This document shows, piece by piece, positions 2,161-10,184 of a DNA stretch of 35,753 nucleotides. A program made the position numbers and the translations under genes. The first letter of the stretch is position 1, and every line of letters starts with the position of its first letter. A model generated the notes under the pieces. The model made no database searches. It was not told the DNA's origin and saw nothing but the letters and a program-made list of their open reading frames with translations. Origin of the DNA: Flavobacteriales bacterium (GTDB taxonomy: Bacteria > Bacteroidota > Bacteroidia > Flavobacteriales_D > Crocinitomicaceae); NCBI GenBank assembly GCA_947454395.1, contig CANGLG010000003.1, forward strand, positions 1 to 35,753. The letters are read 5' to 3'.

Positions 2161-2210
2161 AAAATGTCAAGTTTATTGTTTAAAAAACTGGACAAACTAG
2201 TTTGTTTTAA
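2161..2210. repeat. Left imperfect direct repeat flanking AbiE-type module
   Basis: aaaatgtcaagtttattgtttaaaaaactggacaaactagtttgttttaa resembles 3895-3939; shared core AAACTGGACAAA. Confidence 0.6.
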
Positions 2211-3160
2211 ATTCTCTTTATTAGTTTTTTGAAAGATTCTGCAACATCACCTTCAAAAGGAATTGGTCTGTAAGCATATGCAGCCAATTCTGATAAATAG
2301 GCGCTCTTTAATTTTATCCATTGGCTGTCAAAGTCTGATATTAAAGGTGATTCGATAAGTTTTTTTTGTTGCCAGTTTAATGGTTCGTCAAAAATGTCTC
2401 TATCATGTTGAATAATTTCTTCGAATCGGATTTGGAAAGATTTAGATTCAACGAATTCTGCACATTGCGGATTCTTTAGTAAATAGTGTATATCATAAAA
2501 ATGTCTGATTTTTTGAGCAGTACTTTCAACAGGGTTTGAATCAAAAGAAAAACGTATTAAGGAAACGAGTTTTTCTAGTAATGTTTGCTCTTTACTTAGC
2601 ACATTGATATTAAAAGACTGTAGTCCAAATCTATCGATGTATTCCGAATTTCCAGAGGCAATTAAGAAATCATGCACCATGCTTGAAATCGATAGTTTTT
2701 CAAACGGAAAAGGATTTGCGAATGAGTTGATTTCAACGATAATAGTATTAGCCGAATTACTGTTTTCCAATGTAGGGTATTCAAAAACTGACTTTCGAAA
2801 GCGTGATCCTTTGCTTGTTACTCCTGAGGTGGGTCTTTCCGTTAAAGAACTTGTTATTTCTTTTTCAAGCGTTCGGATGATTGTTTTTATCTCATTCCCT
2901 GATTTGTTTCCATCATCTATAATTGCCAAATCAACATCTTCCGAAAAACGATCGATTAAGTTGTGTCCTTTTGATAAGGATGTTCCACCTTTGAAAACGG
3001 AACTTTCACTGAATTTACTCCTGGATAGTTCCTTTAATACTAAGGTAATCCAATAGTCTTTTTCAACAAATTCAAATCTGATACCCAAGTGTTGTGCTGT
3101 GGCTCTGAGTGTATCTGAGAATAATTTGGATTCTTGGTGCAAGTTCATATTAAATTCCAT
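2207..3160 (-). CDS. Nucleotidyltransferase AbiEii/AbiGii toxin family protein
   Basis: FKGGTSLSKGHNLIDRFSEDVDLAI motif typical of AbiEii nucleotidyltransferases; overlaps the upstream antitoxin-like gene. Confidence 0.9.
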   Translation of the reverse strand: MEFNMNLHQESKLFSDTLRATAQHLGIRFEFVEKDYWITLVLKELSRSKFSESSVFKGGTSLSKGHNLIDRFSEDVDLAIIDDGNKSGNEIKTIIRTLEKEITSSLTERPTSGVTSKGSRFRKSVFEYPTLENSNSANTIIVEINSFANPFPFEKLSISSMVHDFLIASGNSEYIDRFGLQSFNINVLSKEQTLLEKLVSLIRFSFDSNPVESTAQKIRHFYDIHYLLKNPQCAEFVESKSFQIRFEEIIQHDRDIFDEPLNWQQKKLIESPLISDFDSQWIKLKSAYLSELAAYAYRPIPFEGDVAESFKKLIKRI

Positions 3161-3867
3161 TTTTCAGTATTAGATAATACGGATGAAACACCAGTCAATT
3201 TATATTTTGTGAAAGGATTTAATGAATTGTATAGTGTCTCTGTGGATGTGTTTTTATTCTCGTCCAACATCGCGCCAAGTAAAGCTCTTGTGGCAGGCGG
3301 ATATTTCATTGCTAAGCGCATGAGTAATGTAATCTCTTTCTCTTTGAGTTCTTTTATTATCTGCAAAAAACGCAAGCATGAATTTCTTGGATTCGAATCC
3401 GGTATCTTTTTGATGTATCGAATAGCATCCAAAATTTGCAATATAGGGATACTCTCTTTAGTAATGGTATTTTTTTGTTTGATAAAAGAAATAGTATAGG
3501 TGTCTCTTTTGAATCTTGGTCTAACTTGGTTTTTCCCTATTTGAATCGTATTGCTTACTTGTGTTGTAAGACCTAATTTATTATAGATACTATAACCTGT
3601 CAGATAACCAACTGTTTTTCCGTTATCTTCAATTAAGTCTTTTACAACTTGTTTTTGGCTTGGTAGTAATTTCCCAAAAGGCGTTGTTTCCGGTTTATAA
3701 TATTTACCCTTTGAAAGTTTTGCAATTTTACCAGCTGCAGCCATTCTATTAAGTGCTTTAATGACTGCTTGTTTCTGATTCACCTTGCTAGTAAAATCAT
3801 CATAGGTGAAAATGTATCCTTTCGGAAATCTATCAATTGTAATTGCTATGTATTCAGTTGTTTTCAC
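3145..3867 (-). CDS. DUF6088 / AbiEi-like antitoxin
   Basis: N-terminal winged-helix-like region (YDDFTSKVNQKQAVIKALNRMAAAGKIAKLSKGKYYKP) directly upstream of and overlapping the AbiEii-like gene. Confidence 0.85.
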   Translation of the reverse strand: MKTTEYIAITIDRFPKGYIFTYDDFTSKVNQKQAVIKALNRMAAAGKIAKLSKGKYYKPETTPFGKLLPSQKQVVKDLIEDNGKTVGYLTGYSIYNKLGLTTQVSNTIQIGKNQVRPRFKRDTYTISFIKQKNTITKESIPILQILDAIRYIKKIPDSNPRNSCLRFLQIIKELKEKEITLLMRLAMKYPPATRALLGAMLDENKNTSTETLYNSLNPFTKYKLTGVSSVLSNTEKWNLI

Positions 3868-3955: not shown

Positions 3956-4588
3956 TCACCTTTCCTCACTCAAACTCTTCAACAACTTAATCAAACTCAA
4001 CTGGGGATGACAATCGGATTTGTCGGCACGGAAGGAAACGTGTGTCCAGATGCCTGGCGTACCATTGAGGGCCAGGGTATTGAGTTTCCACATATCGGGT
4101 TGGTAGGTATTGGGAATGGTGTATTTCTCGCAGAGGTACTCGAGTAGGGTTTTGAGTGATTCGAGTTGTTCGTCTTTGTATTTATGGAAAAAGCGGTGAC
4201 CGCGCCATTGCATGCCGTAGTCGATGACTTCTTCTTTGGGGACTTCTCGGTTGAAAGTGGAATAATACTTTCCGCTTTTTTCGATTAATGCGCCCCAATT
4301 ACAGATTTCAATGCCAATAGATTGTTGGTTCAACTGGGTGTTGTTGCGGTTGTGTGTGCCTAGGTGGTGCGCCCAATGGGCTGAACTGAAACATTGGTAA
4401 ATGATGCCGTCTCCATCGATGACGAAAGCTGTTGCCACCCGAACCGGTGTATACTCCCATCCGCTGATGACGTTTTTGGCGTTTGGACCGCTGACGGTGT
4501 GGTGTAAAACAATCTGTTTCTTCGGATGTGCTTCCGGGTAATATTGAGCTTTGGTTAATGGGAATTGAATGAGGTTTTTGATGTTCAT
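3956..4588 (-). CDS. N-acetylmuramoyl-L-alanine amidase (Amidase_2)
   Basis: KKQIVLHHTVSGPNAKNVISGW, SAHWAHHLG, QSIGIEICNWG, THVSFRADKSDCHP motifs. Confidence 0.88.
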   Translation of the reverse strand: MNIKNLIQFPLTKAQYYPEAHPKKQIVLHHTVSGPNAKNVISGWEYTPVRVATAFVIDGDGIIYQCFSSAHWAHHLGTHNRNNTQLNQQSIGIEICNWGALIEKSGKYYSTFNREVPKEEVIDYGMQWRGHRFFHKYKDEQLESLKTLLEYLCEKYTIPNTYQPDMWKLNTLALNGTPGIWTHVSFRADKSDCHPQLSLIKLLKSLSEER

Positions 4589-4622
4589 GGATTTATTTTT
4601 TAGTTGGTTAATTTTTATTCTT

Positions 4623-4714
4623 GGGTGATTGTCACCCCTCTGTATCTCCCCTCGCAGGGGAGAAGGATTAGAACTCTGTCTCCCCTTCTGCCACGGCAGA
4701 CAGGCATGGGGAGA
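4623..4714. repeat. Cluster of three tandem hairpins (REP-like intergenic repeat)
   Basis: GGGTGA-ttg-TCACCC; TCTCCCCT-cgc-AGGGGAGA; TCTCCCC...CTGCCacGGCAG...GGGGAGA. Confidence 0.7.
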
Positions 4715-4725
4715 AGGAAAAGGTT

Positions 4726-5352
4726 TTATTTTCGTTTGTCGGGGGTATCGGATGAGAATGCGATGAGGTTGAACATTTCACGCATTCGGGAGCGGATACG
4801 GGTGCCGTAAATGGATTCTACTTGATCGGCATTGAGGTTGGTCGTGATGTGGGTAAGAATGCCCTGTGTTTTGTAAAGGTCGTAGCGCTTGAAGAGAATG
4901 AATTCCATGGTGTTGCATTCGTTGCCCATATGTTTGAGGAAGGGTTCAACTCCTAAATCATCGAAGCAATAATGGGTGTATTGGTCGGCAATGTTGTTGA
5001 TGTATTTGTATCCTTCCAAGTTGTAAAAAACGGCAACTTCCTTTGTAGAAAGTATCTTATACCTCCTATCGGGATAATTGAATTCATTGATGAGGTTCAT
5101 GAATGCTGACTTCCCACAACCCACTGGTCCTGCCAATATGATTCCTTTGTGGATGTCAATGCCTAAACTATTGCATCGTTCTTCATCTCGTATGGCGTAA
5201 CAAATGAGTTTGTACAGGATGTTGTGGTCGCATTGGTGCAATTCAAATTTTTGACCAAATCGGGATTTTCCAAGTTTAGTTATGTGTTTGAGGCAGTCGG
5301 CGAACGTATAGTTTCGGACATTGTCTTTTAGTTTAAATGGTAAATTACTCAT
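4726..5352 (-). CDS. DnaC-like AAA+ ATP-binding protein
   Basis: Walker A GIILAGPVGCGKSAF and Walker B HYCFDDLG; ends with typical arginine-rich RSRMREMFN. Confidence 0.75.
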   Translation of the reverse strand: MSNLPFKLKDNVRNYTFADCLKHITKLGKSRFGQKFELHQCDHNILYKLICYAIRDEERCNSLGIDIHKGIILAGPVGCGKSAFMNLINEFNYPDRRYKILSTKEVAVFYNLEGYKYINNIADQYTHYCFDDLGVEPFLKHMGNECNTMEFILFKRYDLYKTQGILTHITTNLNADQVESIYGTRIRSRMREMFNLIAFSSDTPDKRK

Positions 5353-5364
5353 ACTCTTATTTTT

Positions 5365-6075
5365 TCAATAGGCTTTTTTGTGATCAATGGAAGGGGAAAC
5401 AATGAGTCTGTTCAATGCTTGCTTTCCATGTTGTTTTGTTTCGTTTTCAACTGTATGGTTCATCATCCATTTTTTGGCGAGTGCCATCCAGTTGTGAATG
5501 TTATTTTTTCCGGATTTCCAACCGATGGATTCGTAATGGAGGAAAAACAATTCTGCTTCCCTTTTAACGGAATTGTTTTCTTTAAAAAAATCCAAAACTT
5601 CTTCCAATTCGGGTGTGTCAAAAGTTGATTTGCTTTCTGTGTTTTTAGTAATTAATTCTTCTTTTTTAGTTGTTTTAATTCTTTTATTTAAAGGACTCAT
5701 CTGTTGTTTGTCAGCTGTTTGATGTGTCGTATTGCTTGTTGTATTATGAGTTATCGTATTTGTTGTATCAAAAATGAACATGTGCACTGAGCTACCTTTG
5801 AATGGATTGTGCGAAGGATGATACTTTATATAATTCCATTCTTGTAATTGGTGTAAGCCTTTGTGGTAGGTATTGATTGAACCTATTTTTGCTGCTTTCA
5901 TCAATTCACCACGGTGTACCAAAATGGGATTGTTGAAGTTTCCCGCATTCCACATGTGAAACAGTGCATAATACAAGCTGACATGCCAAGCTGATAAGCG
6001 ATTGTCTTCCGTAATCATTTGACTTACTCGGTTCAAATGCACGATGTAATTGATCTTAAACGATCTCTTTGACAT
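5365..6075 (-). CDS. Replication-initiator/DnaD-like hypothetical protein of a mobile element
   Basis: 236-aa ORF packed between HTH and DnaC-like genes; N-terminal winged-helix-like SAWHVSLYYALFHMWN... and C-terminal WKSGKNNIHNWMALAKKWM. Confidence 0.55.
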   Translation of the reverse strand: MSKRSFKINYIVHLNRVSQMITEDNRLSAWHVSLYYALFHMWNAGNFNNPILVHRGELMKAAKIGSINTYHKGLHQLQEWNYIKYHPSHNPFKGSSVHMFIFDTTNTITHNTTSNTTHQTADKQQMSPLNKRIKTTKKEELITKNTESKSTFDTPELEEVLDFFKENNSVKREAELFFLHYESIGWKSGKNNIHNWMALAKKWMMNHTVENETKQHGKQALNRLIVSPSIDHKKAY

Positions 6076-6076
6076 G

Positions 6077-6379
6077 CTACAGACGATTACGAACGCGTGA
6101 TTCCAACAACTGATGAATGTCTTCTTTGGGATAAAAGATTACCCCTCCAATTTTTGTGTACGGTATTTTACCTGTTAAACGGAGGTTTTGAAGGGTGCTG
6201 GGCGAAATGGCCAACATGCGTTGCACCTGATAGGACTTTAACCAACACTTTTCTTCTTTTCGCTGTGTTTCTACTTCCATTTCCTGTTTTCTGGTCTGGT
6301 TTAACAGGGTTTTAAATTCGTGTAGAAGTTCTTGTTTGAAAGCAATCAAGTCTTCTACGGTAACAATTGTAGCTGCCAT
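6077..6379 (-). CDS. Helix-turn-helix (excisionase/MerR-like) DNA-binding protein
   Basis: WLKSYQVQRMLAISPSTLQNLRLTGKIPYTKIGGVIFYPKEDIHQLLE; start taken at MAATIVTVEDL rather than the longer ORF start at 6517. Confidence 0.85.
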   Translation of the reverse strand: MAATIVTVEDLIAFKQELLHEFKTLLNQTRKQEMEVETQRKEEKCWLKSYQVQRMLAISPSTLQNLRLTGKIPYTKIGGVIFYPKEDIHQLLESRVRNRL

Positions 6380-6604
6380 AATTTTGATTTTAAATTCAAT
6401 GCAAATAGAACTGAAAAAAATAAGCAGATGGGGTTGCAAGGGGTTGTGCAACCTGTTCTGAAAGTGCTGTAAATGTTGGGGTTTTTCGTTATATAAAAAA
6501 CGAAAAGGATGAGGCATGACAGCTTCAAATTTCGTTAGAAAACATTCGAATTGCCTCTAGAAACAGCCAAAAATGAGTAGTTTTGACTGTAATTAAAAAG
6601 ATTC

Positions 6605-6761
6605 AGTAGCGACACGCTTTTTTTGGGTAATCGAAACCGCCAATTTAAAGAACCCCCTAAAAGACAAGCCAGTCGTCCTCGCATGGCGTGGGCACAGTTT
6701 GCATGGGGGTAGAGCTTGGCGGTTCTAGATTACCTGCAAATTGATGACCACGCTACTTTTT
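6605..6761 (+). ncRNA. Candidate structured non-coding RNA
   Basis: Nested perfect helices: AGTAGCG (6605-6611)/CGCTACT (6751-6757); GGTAATC (6626-6632)/GATTACC (6728-6734); AACCGCCAA (6635-6643)/TTGGCGGTT (6716-6724); ACCCCC (6652-6657)/GGGGGT (6705-6710); the closing stem is followed by TTTTT. No ORF of note covers it; TAGTTTTG at 6578-6585 fits the Bacteroidetes -7 element TAnnTTTG. Confidence 0.6.
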
Positions 6762-6777
6762 AAGAATTAATCATGCG

Positions 6778-6981
6778 ATGGAAAATTTAAGCAATAACCC
6801 TTCCGGCAGTTCTGAACTTCTCCTTTTTATGCATATTCACGGTATTCAAACTTTGTCGGAACTTTTGCGGTATTCGGAAGAAGAGTTGCTTCATATGGCG
6901 GGTTTTTCTGTTCATTTGTTGTTGGAAATTGATGCATTTAAAAGGTCTCATTTGAATTCAGATTCCGGTTCAAGCGATTAA
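6778..6981 (+). CDS. RNA polymerase alpha-subunit C-terminal-domain-like (HhH) mini-protein
   Basis: HGIQTLSELLRYSEEELLHMAGFSVHLLLEIDAFKRSHL resembles RpoA CTD (I.TLgdLl.ySEEdLL.irnFG..SL.EI...L). Confidence 0.6.
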   Translation: MENLSNNPSGSSELLLFMHIHGIQTLSELLRYSEEELLHMAGFSVHLLLEIDAFKRSHLNSDSGSSD

Positions 6982-8461
6982 TCATTTGTATGAGTTTGGT
7001 TTTCAATGCTTCTACATTTTTTGGGTCTTTGTCATAGTAATTATTTCGTAAACTGGCTACGGCAATACTTGGTTGATTCATGGTGCGGAATGCATTGGAA
7101 AAAGTTGAAAAGACTTGGGTTTTGTTTTTATCTTGAATGATTCCCTCTTCTACCATTAAGGCAGCAAACAAAGCTAATTGTGGGACATTTAGAGTGGTGG
7201 TGAGCTTTTGGTTACCGCTGTTTTGCGAAAACGGAATTGTATCTTCCGGATTGGAAGCATGTATTCCATCCATATAAGCTATTTCTTCTTTTATCCAAGA
7301 AGCCAGCAACTCCGCTGCTGAAGGAAAGTTTTGTCTATAAGCTACTTTGGTTAACGGTATGATTTGCCTGATTTTCTTTTGTTCCTGCAATAGCCATTGT
7401 CTTAATTCTATTTGATTTTTCTGGTTTTTCATTTCCAATCGTAGTTTCTTGGTTTTCCAAGCAATAAATTCTGTTTGATTGAAATTCAACAGCAAGAGTG
7501 TTTCTGATATGATCTCACTTTCAGGAGTGTTTGAGGTTGAACATTGCAAGGTATTTGTCAACTCATACACTAATAATTTTGCATAAGTGAATTCGTGAAG
7601 CGAAGTATATATTCCATTCCCTGTTTCAATCAATTGGATTTGTGAATTGATGATGTGTTTCAATTCCTCATCTGCTAATGTTGCAATTTGAGCTTTTAAG
7701 GTTTGAATACGGGATTGGAGCTCACCTGTTGAAATGTGGTAATTTCGCATGTATTCGTTCACCTCATCTGAAAAATGATGTCCATACTTGCGCTTAGTAT
7801 TTAAAATGGTCAGATTCAGAAAATAGAGGGTAAGTGCTTCGAATTCTTTGGTAGCATAGTTTTCAGTTAAAAAATGGGTGAGTTTAGGAACCCCTTCTCG
7901 CTGAGTATTTAATAAATCCATTGCATCATTCAAAAGGGATAATTGCATTTCAGAAATCCAATAGCGGACCGTTTGGGAAAATTCACTGCTGTAAAGTTGG
8001 GTTCTGATATTGGCGAAAATCTTCTCTGTTTCTGCTTTCAGATTCATGTATAAAAAAGCAAATTTCACTTCCCCTAACGTAAGCTTATTCCATTCTGTTC
8101 GTCGCTCAATTAAACAGATTTTATGCTGTTTCCCAGGTAATTGTGTGATTCTATCTATGCGTTGAATATCTACACTAATTGCATGGGCTGCCAAAATTGA
8201 TACTGGGTTACTTTTCCAATTTTCATTTGTGTTAATCGCGTTGGTGTGGTAATGTTCATAAGCAGGGTGAGCGATTGTTATTCTGCATATGGGATAAAAC
8301 CCCTCGCCTTTTTTGTTTGTCTTCACTTCAAGGATATGAATCAAGGAAGCATTTCCATAAAACTGCTCTAATGCATCACAATAAAAATCAAAATCATCAT
8401 TATGAATCAGCTCTTTATACCAAGTGCTAAACTCCATTTGTACGTTAACTGAAACCTGCAT
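6938..8461 (-). CDS. Hypothetical mobile-element protein (507 aa)
   Basis: Long ORF; C-terminal NVPQLALFAALMVEEGII..KTQVFSTFSNAF resembles RteC-type/Bacteroidetes mobile-element proteins; tail-to-tail overlap with 6778-6981. Confidence 0.7.
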   Translation of the reverse strand: MQVSVNVQMEFSTWYKELIHNDDFDFYCDALEQFYGNASLIHILEVKTNKKGEGFYPICRITIAHPAYEHYHTNAINTNENWKSNPVSILAAHAISVDIQRIDRITQLPGKQHKICLIERRTEWNKLTLGEVKFAFLYMNLKAETEKIFANIRTQLYSSEFSQTVRYWISEMQLSLLNDAMDLLNTQREGVPKLTHFLTENYATKEFEALTLYFLNLTILNTKRKYGHHFSDEVNEYMRNYHISTGELQSRIQTLKAQIATLADEELKHIINSQIQLIETGNGIYTSLHEFTYAKLLVYELTNTLQCSTSNTPESEIISETLLLLNFNQTEFIAWKTKKLRLEMKNQKNQIELRQWLLQEQKKIRQIIPLTKVAYRQNFPSAAELLASWIKEEIAYMDGIHASNPEDTIPFSQNSGNQKLTTTLNVPQLALFAALMVEEGIIQDKNKTQVFSTFSNAFRTMNQPSIAVASLRNNYYDKDPKNVEALKTKLIQMINRLNRNLNSNETF

Positions 8462-8533
8462 GGATATGAAAACATCTTTCTCTGTTGTTACGAAAACGTT
8501 TGTTTGGGTTTCATAAATGGTGATTTTTTAGGT

Positions 8534-8571: not shown

Positions 8572-9843
8572 CTACTCTGCTTTTTTGTATGATGCCTCAT
8601 CCGAATGTTCACCAAACAGTTTGTTTTTAAGCATGCTCATGTCTTCGCTTACTTTTTTCTCTAATACTTTGGCATAAATCTGCGTGGTCTTTATACTTGT
8701 ATGGCCGAGCATCGCACTGACGGTCTCGATTGGAACGCCATTTGCTAATGTCACGGTTGTGGCAAAGGTATGTCGAGCAATGTGCGTGGTTAGCTTCTTT
8801 TTTATTCCGCAAATGGTTGCAATTTCTTGTAAATAGGCGTTGTAGCGCTGATTGGAGTTTACGGGCAAGAGTTTGTTGTTTCGAATGCAATATTCGTGGT
8901 CTTTGTATTTTTCTAAAATTCTCAATGCAATGGGCAACAATGGGACTCGTTCACTGACTCCTGTTTTTTGTCTCTCTGTGCACAGCCACACGTTGCCGTC
9001 TATTCCGATTTCTTCTTCTCCTTTGGCAAAGTTGTAGATGTCGCTGTAAGCAAATCCGGTGAAGCAACAGAATATGAAAACGTCTCTTACTTCTTCCAAA
9101 CGGGCGATTTGAAATTCTTTGTTGATTAGGATGTTTAGTTCTTCTTGGGTTAATACTTGTCGAACGGGGTTCCGATAGCTTGTTTTGAATCCGTTCAAGG
9201 GGTGTGATGGTATCCAGTCAAGGGTTACTGCCATATTGAAAATCTTCTTTACAATCTTAATGATTTTGTGTATGGTGTTGTTTTGTAGTTTTTCCTTCGT
9301 GACGAGGTAATGTTCGAATTCCGTGATAAAGGAGAGTCGAACTTTGTCTAATGGTATGTCGTTCAATCCTTTGTTGGTTTTCATGAAATAGAGTAGCTTG
9401 GCATGTGTTGATTGATAGCGTAACAATGTCTTCCGTTCGATTTTTCCTATCTCAACCATTTCTTTCATTTTTAGGTTGTGGTACTCAAATGCTTCGGTGA
9501 GTGTTTTACGCTGGTTATTTGGGTCTTTGCCGAGGTACTTGTCACGTATAATTGCTGCTGTGACTTGTTCGCTACAGGCGATTGTCTGGTTGTAAATGGT
9601 CATTAGTTTTCCTTTTACCATCATTAGGTACGAGTTGATGACTGCGGCTTCTTCGTACTTTGGTTTTACGGACTGTGTGGCTTTGTCCCAATGTTCTGCC
9701 GGTACTGTTCGTGCTACTGATAGTTCTACGCGTATTCCATCTACGGTTATTCTTAGGTAAATAGGGAGTTTCCCGCTTTTTTGCTTGCGGTTGCTATTGA
9801 CCCAAAATAATAGGTGCATGGGTGAATGAACTGAATTGTACAT
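8572..9843 (-). CDS. Tyrosine-type site-specific integrase (Bacteroidetes phage_int_SAM type)
   Basis: FCCFTGFAYSDIYNF, HIARHTFATTVTLANGVPIETVSAMLGHTSIKTTQIYAKV (catalytic H-x-x-R-H..Y signature); N-terminal VNSNRKQKSGKLPIYLRITVDGIRVELS arm domain. Confidence 0.96.
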   Translation of the reverse strand: MYNSVHSPMHLLFWVNSNRKQKSGKLPIYLRITVDGIRVELSVARTVPAEHWDKATQSVKPKYEEAAVINSYLMMVKGKLMTIYNQTIACSEQVTAAIIRDKYLGKDPNNQRKTLTEAFEYHNLKMKEMVEIGKIERKTLLRYQSTHAKLLYFMKTNKGLNDIPLDKVRLSFITEFEHYLVTKEKLQNNTIHKIIKIVKKIFNMAVTLDWIPSHPLNGFKTSYRNPVRQVLTQEELNILINKEFQIARLEEVRDVFIFCCFTGFAYSDIYNFAKGEEEIGIDGNVWLCTERQKTGVSERVPLLPIALRILEKYKDHEYCIRNNKLLPVNSNQRYNAYLQEIATICGIKKKLTTHIARHTFATTVTLANGVPIETVSAMLGHTSIKTTQIYAKVLEKKVSEDMSMLKNKLFGEHSDEASYKKAE

Positions 9844-9941
9844 GTTGTATTAATTTTTTCAGTGCAAATCATACTATTATGACCCCATCAACGGGTAAAA
9901 CGGAATTTTTTGTTTTGTAGGTTTAATAAGGGATACAAAGC

Positions 9942-9992
9942 AAAAGTGAACAAAATTACAACAAATGAATGTTCACTTTTTGTTGTAATTTT
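9942..9992. repeat. Two interleaved inverted repeats upstream of integrase
   Basis: AAAAGTGAAC (9942-9951)/GTTCACTTTT (9971-9980) interleaved with AAAATTACAACAAA (9952-9965)/TTTGTTGTAATTTT (9979-9992). Confidence 0.85.
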
Positions 9993-10083
9993 AAAACTAG
10001 TTTAATGGTGTTTTTTGGGTGTTTTTGGGATTAAATTCGAGTGCTTTTTGCGTGTTTTGGTAAAATATAGGGGTATTTAACGC

Positions 10084-10110
10084 AAAAAAGGAGCTGAATA
10101 GCTCCTTTTT
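10084..10110 (-). terminator. Rho-independent terminator of tRNA-Gln
   Basis: GGAGCT-gaat-AGCTCC flanked by A6 and T5, just downstream of the minus-strand tRNA. Confidence 0.8.
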
Positions 10111-10111
10111 G

Positions 10112-10184
10112 TTGACCCACTAGGGCTCGAACCTAGACTCTTCTGGACCAAAACCAGACGTGTTGCCAGTTACACCATGGGTCA
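10112..10184 (-). tRNA. tRNA-Gln (anticodon TTG)
   Basis: Reverse complement TGACCCATGGTGTAACTGGCAACACGTCTGGTTTTGGTCCAGAAGAGTCTAGGTTCGAGCCCTAGTGGGTCA folds as a cloverleaf; acceptor TGACCCA/TGGGTCA, anticodon loop TTTTGGT, T-loop GGTTCGAGCC. Confidence 0.95.

Follow-up and report, generated by a model that had tools for sequence, protein, structure and literature searches.

A family of pseudoknotted RNAs preceding same-strand genes in Bacteroidota, with two mutually exclusive conserved pairings

A structured RNA encoded at positions 6595–6761 of the window, the whole 35,753-nucleotide stretch of Flavobacteriales DNA analyzed here, was found to be one copy of a large RNA family without a match in Rfam 15. 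The family comprises more than 100 loci, collected with a three-copy covariance model, a DNA pattern and a second covariance model, nearly all of them in Bacteroidota. Its fold, its position before same-strand genes and the mutual exclusion of two of its pairings, hairpin H5 and pseudoknot PK1, are established. It is a real RNA and a leader in cis, and it is probably a switch: the reading favored from sequence, at a probability of about 0.55, is a 5' leader that controls the next gene in cis, in which PK1, together with the U tract beside it, would turn the gene off and H5 would leave it on.

The window copy and its fold

The first-pass annotation of this DNA had proposed four nested helices, followed by a T run (6757–6761) and preceded by a TAnnTTTG-type −7 box (6578–6585), in a gap without a credible ORF. 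All four helices (H1–H4) were present where proposed, as were the T run and the box; frames within the gap are short and unshared between relatives. The MFE was −62.4 kcal/mol versus −46.7 ± 4.1 for shuffled sequences (z = −3.8), and none of 200 shuffles was equally stable. The features, all on the + strand, are as follows (R1 and R2 are the two covariance models):

6595–6761, +: structured leader RNA, window copy; R1 207 bits, R2 63.6 bits (E 4e-7)
6578–6585, +: putative Bacteroidota −7-type promoter box TAnnTTTG, TAGTTTTG, by consensus match only; predicted leader start about 10 nt further
6605–6611, +: H1 5' strand AGTAGCG, pairing with CGCTACT at 6751–6757 (7 bp); in the MFE fold, family-wide signal weak
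6616–6625, +: PK2 5' strand region, U-rich, pairing with 6658–6665; co-varies family-wide, 5 bp only in the window
6626–6632, +: H2 5' strand GGTAATC, pairing with GATTACC at 6728–6734 (7 bp); many compensatory changes
6635–6643, +: H3 5' strand AACCGCCAA, pairing with TTGGCGGTT at 6716–6724 (9 bp)
about 6653–6657, +: H4 5' strand CCCCC, pairing with GGGGG at about 6705–6709
6675–6682, +: H5 5' strand GTCCTCGC, pairing with 6686–6693
6686–6702, +: apical strand, the putative switching element, GCGTGGGC-A-CAGTTTGC; its partner is H5 or, as PK1, 6736–6753
6736–6753, +: PK1 3' strand GCAAATTG-ATGA-CCACGC; family-wide swap test
6757–6761, +: U tract directly 3' of the PK1/H1 3' strand; five T in the window
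6773–6781, +: start region ATGCGATGG; putative pairing with CCACGC at 6748–6753
6778–6981, +: predicted target gene, 67 aa, RNA polymerase alpha-CTD-like (Pfam RNA_pol_A_CTD, E 7.5e-4, below the curated cut-off)

A possible pseudoknot TTTGC/GCAAA, pointed out in the annotation, extends to 8 bp (CAGUUUGC at 6695–6702 with GCAAAUUG at 6736–6743), and a G-U pair of this match is replaced by G-C in the relative G030. A second pairing had been overlooked: apical GCGTGG (6686–6691) pairs with CCACGC (6748–6753), overlapping the 3' strand of H1 and, unlike H1, conserved. Regarding the inner hairpin, the CCtCGC/GCGtGG version exists, whereas GCCA/TGGC is unconserved in two close relatives. The promoter box varies as TAGCTTTG in G030, TATCTTTG in L009, L010 and L013, and TACTTTTG in L015, and the ATGCGATGG start region is identical across three relatives whose flanks diverge. 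A leader peptide, MSSFDC*, just 5' of H1 was considered and rejected, its frame being lost in L009–L017; since the synonymous-looking changes in it sit where the promoter box leaves the base free, reading the stretch as a promoter is preferred.

Family and co-variation

Two close copies within the genus are 96% and 89% identical to the window copy, and among these three the stretch from promoter box through T run is conserved far above its flanks. R1, built from these three copies, matched nine clear divergent copies in the order, plus L019, which R2 confirmed at 75.8 bits; the weak R1 matches L018 and L020 lacked the recognizable core and were discarded. A flexible DNA pattern of the conserved core matched at least 119 stretches in bacterial genomes, nearly all Bacteroidota, and four further stretches in viral contigs. 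One match, L144, in a coding region of Anaerolineae, was dismissed as due to chance. R2, built from 30 copies of which none came from the window's genus, recovered the window copy at 63.6 bits (E 4e-7). It found six copies in the window's own genome, five of them on other contigs. Across the phylum 35 of 297 genomes were carriers, as were 11 of 71 within the genus; the true share of carriers is probably higher, because the filters were strict. Outside Bacteroidota the pattern was matched in a few MAGs labeled Verrucomicrobia, Pontiellaceae, Lentisphaeria, Desulfatirhabdium or Clostridia; copies L063, L064, L102, L133 and L148, which carry the first four of these labels, may reflect wider spread, transfer or mis-binned contigs.

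The annotation had called for a search of Rfam and had recognized neither 6S RNA nor tmRNA in the fold. Above the gathering threshold, Rfam 15 matched only tRNAs in the window and in the 18 pattern loci scanned, and the best matches of a permissive sub-threshold scan were at chance level. The structured RNAs Flavo-1 (RF01705), 6S-flavo (RF01685), Bacteroidales-1 and Bacteroides-1 likewise belong to Bacteroidota, and their models matched no copy scanned at the Rfam gathering score. 6S RNA was rejected for want of a match to the 6S or 6S-flavo models, and tmRNA because ARAGORN on the window gave only tRNA-Gln. Phage and plasmid collections, queried by blastn with two copies, gave no match, and neither did an exact 24-mer search of IMG/VR or an IMG/VR search for related loci via the 507-aa neighbor protein.

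Co-variation among homologs, another check that had been proposed, was assessed by a swap test in which each locus was paired with its own partner or with partners exchanged among 119 loci (of the matches listed). Own partners exceeded swapped ones for H2 (19.1 versus 10.4 ± 0.16), H4 (19.2 versus 11.7 ± 0.21), PK1 (22.8 versus 17.2 ± 0.25), PK2 (18.9 versus 14.2 ± 0.25) and H5 (17.6 versus 14.2 ± 0.21; 97.3% paired). H1 was the least supported helix family-wide (15.7 versus 15.0 ± 0.24), and as the main closing helix it is possible but weak. In a 79-sequence alignment, 95.1% of cells were paired and 496 were double-change cells, versus 151 in shuffled controls and at most 122 when partners were slid; this alignment was fitted to the model and is thus biased toward structure, a bias that the swap tests do not share. 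H3 was paired in 99.8% of the alignment cells, with double changes in seven of its eight pairs and variants such as CGCCAA/UUGGCG, GUCGAA/UUCGAC, CGACCAA/UUGGUCG and CUGGUA/UACCAG. Because most of H3 was prescribed by the pattern in the genome contigs found with it, co-variation of this helix rests on model-found copies, GUCGAA/UUCGAC being an example. Combined, these results indicate that H2, H3, H4, H5 and both pseudoknots co-vary strongly. Where a non-Watson-Crick position had helix on either side of it, the pair was G-U in 96 cases and A-C in 3, an excess indicating that the sense-strand RNA, not a folded DNA, has been selected.

Position and downstream genes

Among the matches listed, the first downstream gene lay on the same strand as the RNA in 117 of 128 loci, mostly starting 30–60 nt past it; this count includes the rejected L144 and scores the window, L004 and L005 as misses because a small ORF there overlaps its neighbor, so that it is if anything low. 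Upstream genes were mixed (85 same-strand, 45 opposite). In a second, independent set, drawn from randomly chosen genomes of the phylum, 24 of 28 downstream genes and 7 of 29 upstream genes were on the same strand. The position, which is read from sequence, is that of riboswitch- or attenuator-type leaders (117/128 and 24/28 loci).

Most downstream proteins are unrelated, and no pathway unites them; those that recur include surface, DNA-modification and regulatory proteins, among them BspA-type leucine-rich proteins, DNA methyltransferases, Cro/C1-type HTH proteins and HSDR_N proteins. A same-strand gene that follows the RNA even though these genes are mostly unrelated points to a 5' leader and not to a packaging RNA of the element. 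The annotation's suggestion of a regulatory RNA is very likely right, but its element-specific or packaging variant did not hold, given the five further copies on other contigs of the same genome and more than 100, nearly always before a same-strand gene, across Bacteroidota. Similarly, the RNA does lie between a replication-type operon and an alpha-CTD-like ORF, as had been noted, but not as an independent ncRNA: more than 100 copies, nearly always before a same-strand gene, indicate a cis-acting leader, in the window that of the ORF at 6778–6981. Homologs of this 67-aa ORF directly follow the RNA in L004 and L005, and small ORFs do so in L022, L024 and L025.

In the window's genus the downstream genes encode paralogous LamG proteins with a T9SS tail, and all five copies outside the window in its genome precede LamG-type genes. 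The paralogs at L203–L219 form an expanded set with similar starts and ends and a variable middle, each behind an RNA copy and scattered over the genome; Bro-N proteins adjoin several. SusC/RagA receptors lie downstream in one subgroup. In a subgroup including L157, L160, L169 and L173, the gene starts 220–370 nt further, beyond another inverted repeat. At L157, L165, L169, L170 and L179, a second inverted repeat (for example GCCCTCTA...TAGAGAGC) was seen between the RNA and a SusC/RagA-like gene; on the upstream side of the RNA lies a small gene in divergent orientation that looks HTH-like.

A candidate attenuation switch and its rivals

The 3' side of H5 is the strand that pairs in PK1, so that H5 and PK1 cannot coexist; among the matches listed, 110 of 117 loci show this overlap on one apical strand. 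Directly after PK1, 79 of the 117 have a U tract, versus 5.5% of control windows. Conserved pairings that exclude each other (110/117) close to an expression signal (U tract 79/117) are also what characterizes riboswitches and attenuators, and this exclusivity suggests an attenuation switch. In a subset of loci, the 3' segment was also more complementary to a stretch further downstream than in swapped controls (12.7 versus 11.3 ± 0.17), as in expression platforms.

In the proposed mechanism, transcription would start about 10 nt past the TAnnTTTG box and yield stacked H2–H3–H4, capped by hairpin H5 and held by PK2. The emerging 3' segment would take the apical strand from H5 to form PK1, which, ending at the U tract, would act as an intrinsic-terminator-like OFF state, H5 being the antiterminator ON state. 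A signal (small molecule, protein or ribosome) may bias the choice via the conserved AAA/ACC internal loop and the region around it, and the controlled gene in the window would be the 67-aa alpha-CTD-like ORF. Switching, its direction, the transcriptional level and the existence of a signal are what we infer. Several observations speak against attenuation: the targets have no pathway in common, whereas those of metabolite riboswitches usually do; the stem of PK1 spans a long range, unlike a local terminator hairpin, and H5 is the first of the two to form; gene starts are displaced by 220–370 nt in one subgroup; and in the window PK2 has only 5 bp and the U tract only five T.

A cis leader might instead act on translation, the 3' segment joining either PK1 or the start region and PK1 opening the start codon; in the window, CCACGC would pair with GCGAUGG around the start codon. 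The complementarity between 3' segment and downstream stretch and the retention of ATGCGATGG in three relatives fit this somewhat unlikely reading, but a clear downstream competitor occurs in a subset of loci only and the U tract is more widespread. To our knowledge, Bacteroidota do not rely on Shine-Dalgarno pairing. The absence of Shine-Dalgarno sequences is noted in PMC9723704. If the RNA bound RNA polymerase or a factor and conferred resistance to termination, as put RNAs do and other leaders for processive antitermination in mobile and surface-polysaccharide operons, this would fit the observed occurrence of one large, pseudoknotted leader before many unrelated accessory genes; but many targets are apparently single genes, the leader itself contains the U tract and the H5/PK1 exclusivity would not be required, all of which makes this doubtful.

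An independent trans-acting small RNA gene with its own promoter and terminator, upstream of other genes by chance, would account for the promoter-like box, the compact fold and the 3' U tract. It is improbable given that 117 of 128 loci have a gene downstream on the same strand, usually at a distance of 30–60 nt, which in many cases leaves too little room for a separate promoter. Carriage with accessory genes, a patchy distribution, the presence of an integrase no more than 6 kb away in 19 of 137 loci and the location of the window copy in an integrative element would suit a folded single-stranded DNA site (cassette attachment, transfer or replication origin), but this is strongly disfavored, and very improbable, on account of the 96 G-U versus 3 A-C positions within helices, the upstream promoter-like box, the strict orientation to the next gene and the pseudoknots. 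An attC-like folded recombination site was rejected on the same G-U and A-C counts. Other candidates set aside were a type III toxin-antitoxin RNA (single RNA per locus, with rare exceptions, and unrelated downstream proteins), an OMEGA RNA or TnpB/IscB guide (TnpB/IscB not among the families listed next to the RNA) and a packaging RNA.

The favored attenuation switch resembles riboswitches and pseudoknotted 5' attenuators (preQ1, fluoride, ZTP) in its leader position, pseudoknotted core, exclusive pairings and U tract; unlike these, it has no Rfam match and no shared target pathway, and its terminator-like stem would be the pseudoknot itself. Leaders of the put/EAR antitermination type serve unrelated genes with one RNA in mobile elements and surface-related operons, as is the case here, but there is no match to them in Rfam sequence or structure and the targets here are often single genes. 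Structured 5' regions, some without an Rfam match, are described in Flavobacterium psychrophilum (PMC9723704), likewise RNAs upstream of genes in Bacteroidota, and candidate structured RNAs of human microbiomes, with thousands of motifs in supplements, in PMC8040213. The examples named there (pheA, hisG, ftsY, alaS, rimP; HMP2 motifs) differ from the targets found here, and the family was not found described among the named examples of PMC2864571, PMC8040213 and PMC9723704. The claim is accordingly that it is not in Rfam 15 and was not found described in these; an unnamed entry in the PMC8040213 supplement may overlap with it.

A large, strongly conserved family before surface receptors, adhesins, restriction and regulatory genes, with carriers including Bacteroides, Prevotella, Alistipes and Chryseobacterium, seems to have been missed by the RNA family catalog, in a phylum whose post-transcriptional control is poorly charted. 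If the switch is real, this would be an orphan riboswitch-like class, directly testable in cultured carrier strains such as Prevotella communis E15-14, Bacteroides finegoldii DSM 17565 and Chryseobacterium sp. MYb7, and its signal would show how accessory surface and defense genes are set together. Tentatively, the family may even be a new signal-sensing leader class that jointly controls surface proteins (SusC/RagA, leucine-rich adhesins, LamG/T9SS) and DNA-modification or defense genes, replaces the terminator hairpin by a pseudoknot and spreads with mobile elements.

In seven related integrative elements, including that of the window, a replication-type operon lies on one side of the RNA and the gene for a conserved protein of some 500 aa on the other. 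In the window this is a 507-aa protein without a family match (6938–8461), 21–63% identical to its counterparts beside the RNA in related elements. A tyrosine integrase (8572–10184) adjoins a tRNA-Gln on the same strand, which marks the likely site of attachment; as the tRNA end was not found repeated anywhere else in the window, the second boundary of the element probably falls outside it. The element also carries an AbiEii-type toxin (PF08843) with a DUF6088 partner (2207–3867), a type IV toxin-antitoxin-like pair, and in L023 Lamassu-type LmuB and LmuA genes (4555–8519, PADLOC) lie directly upstream of the RNA copy.
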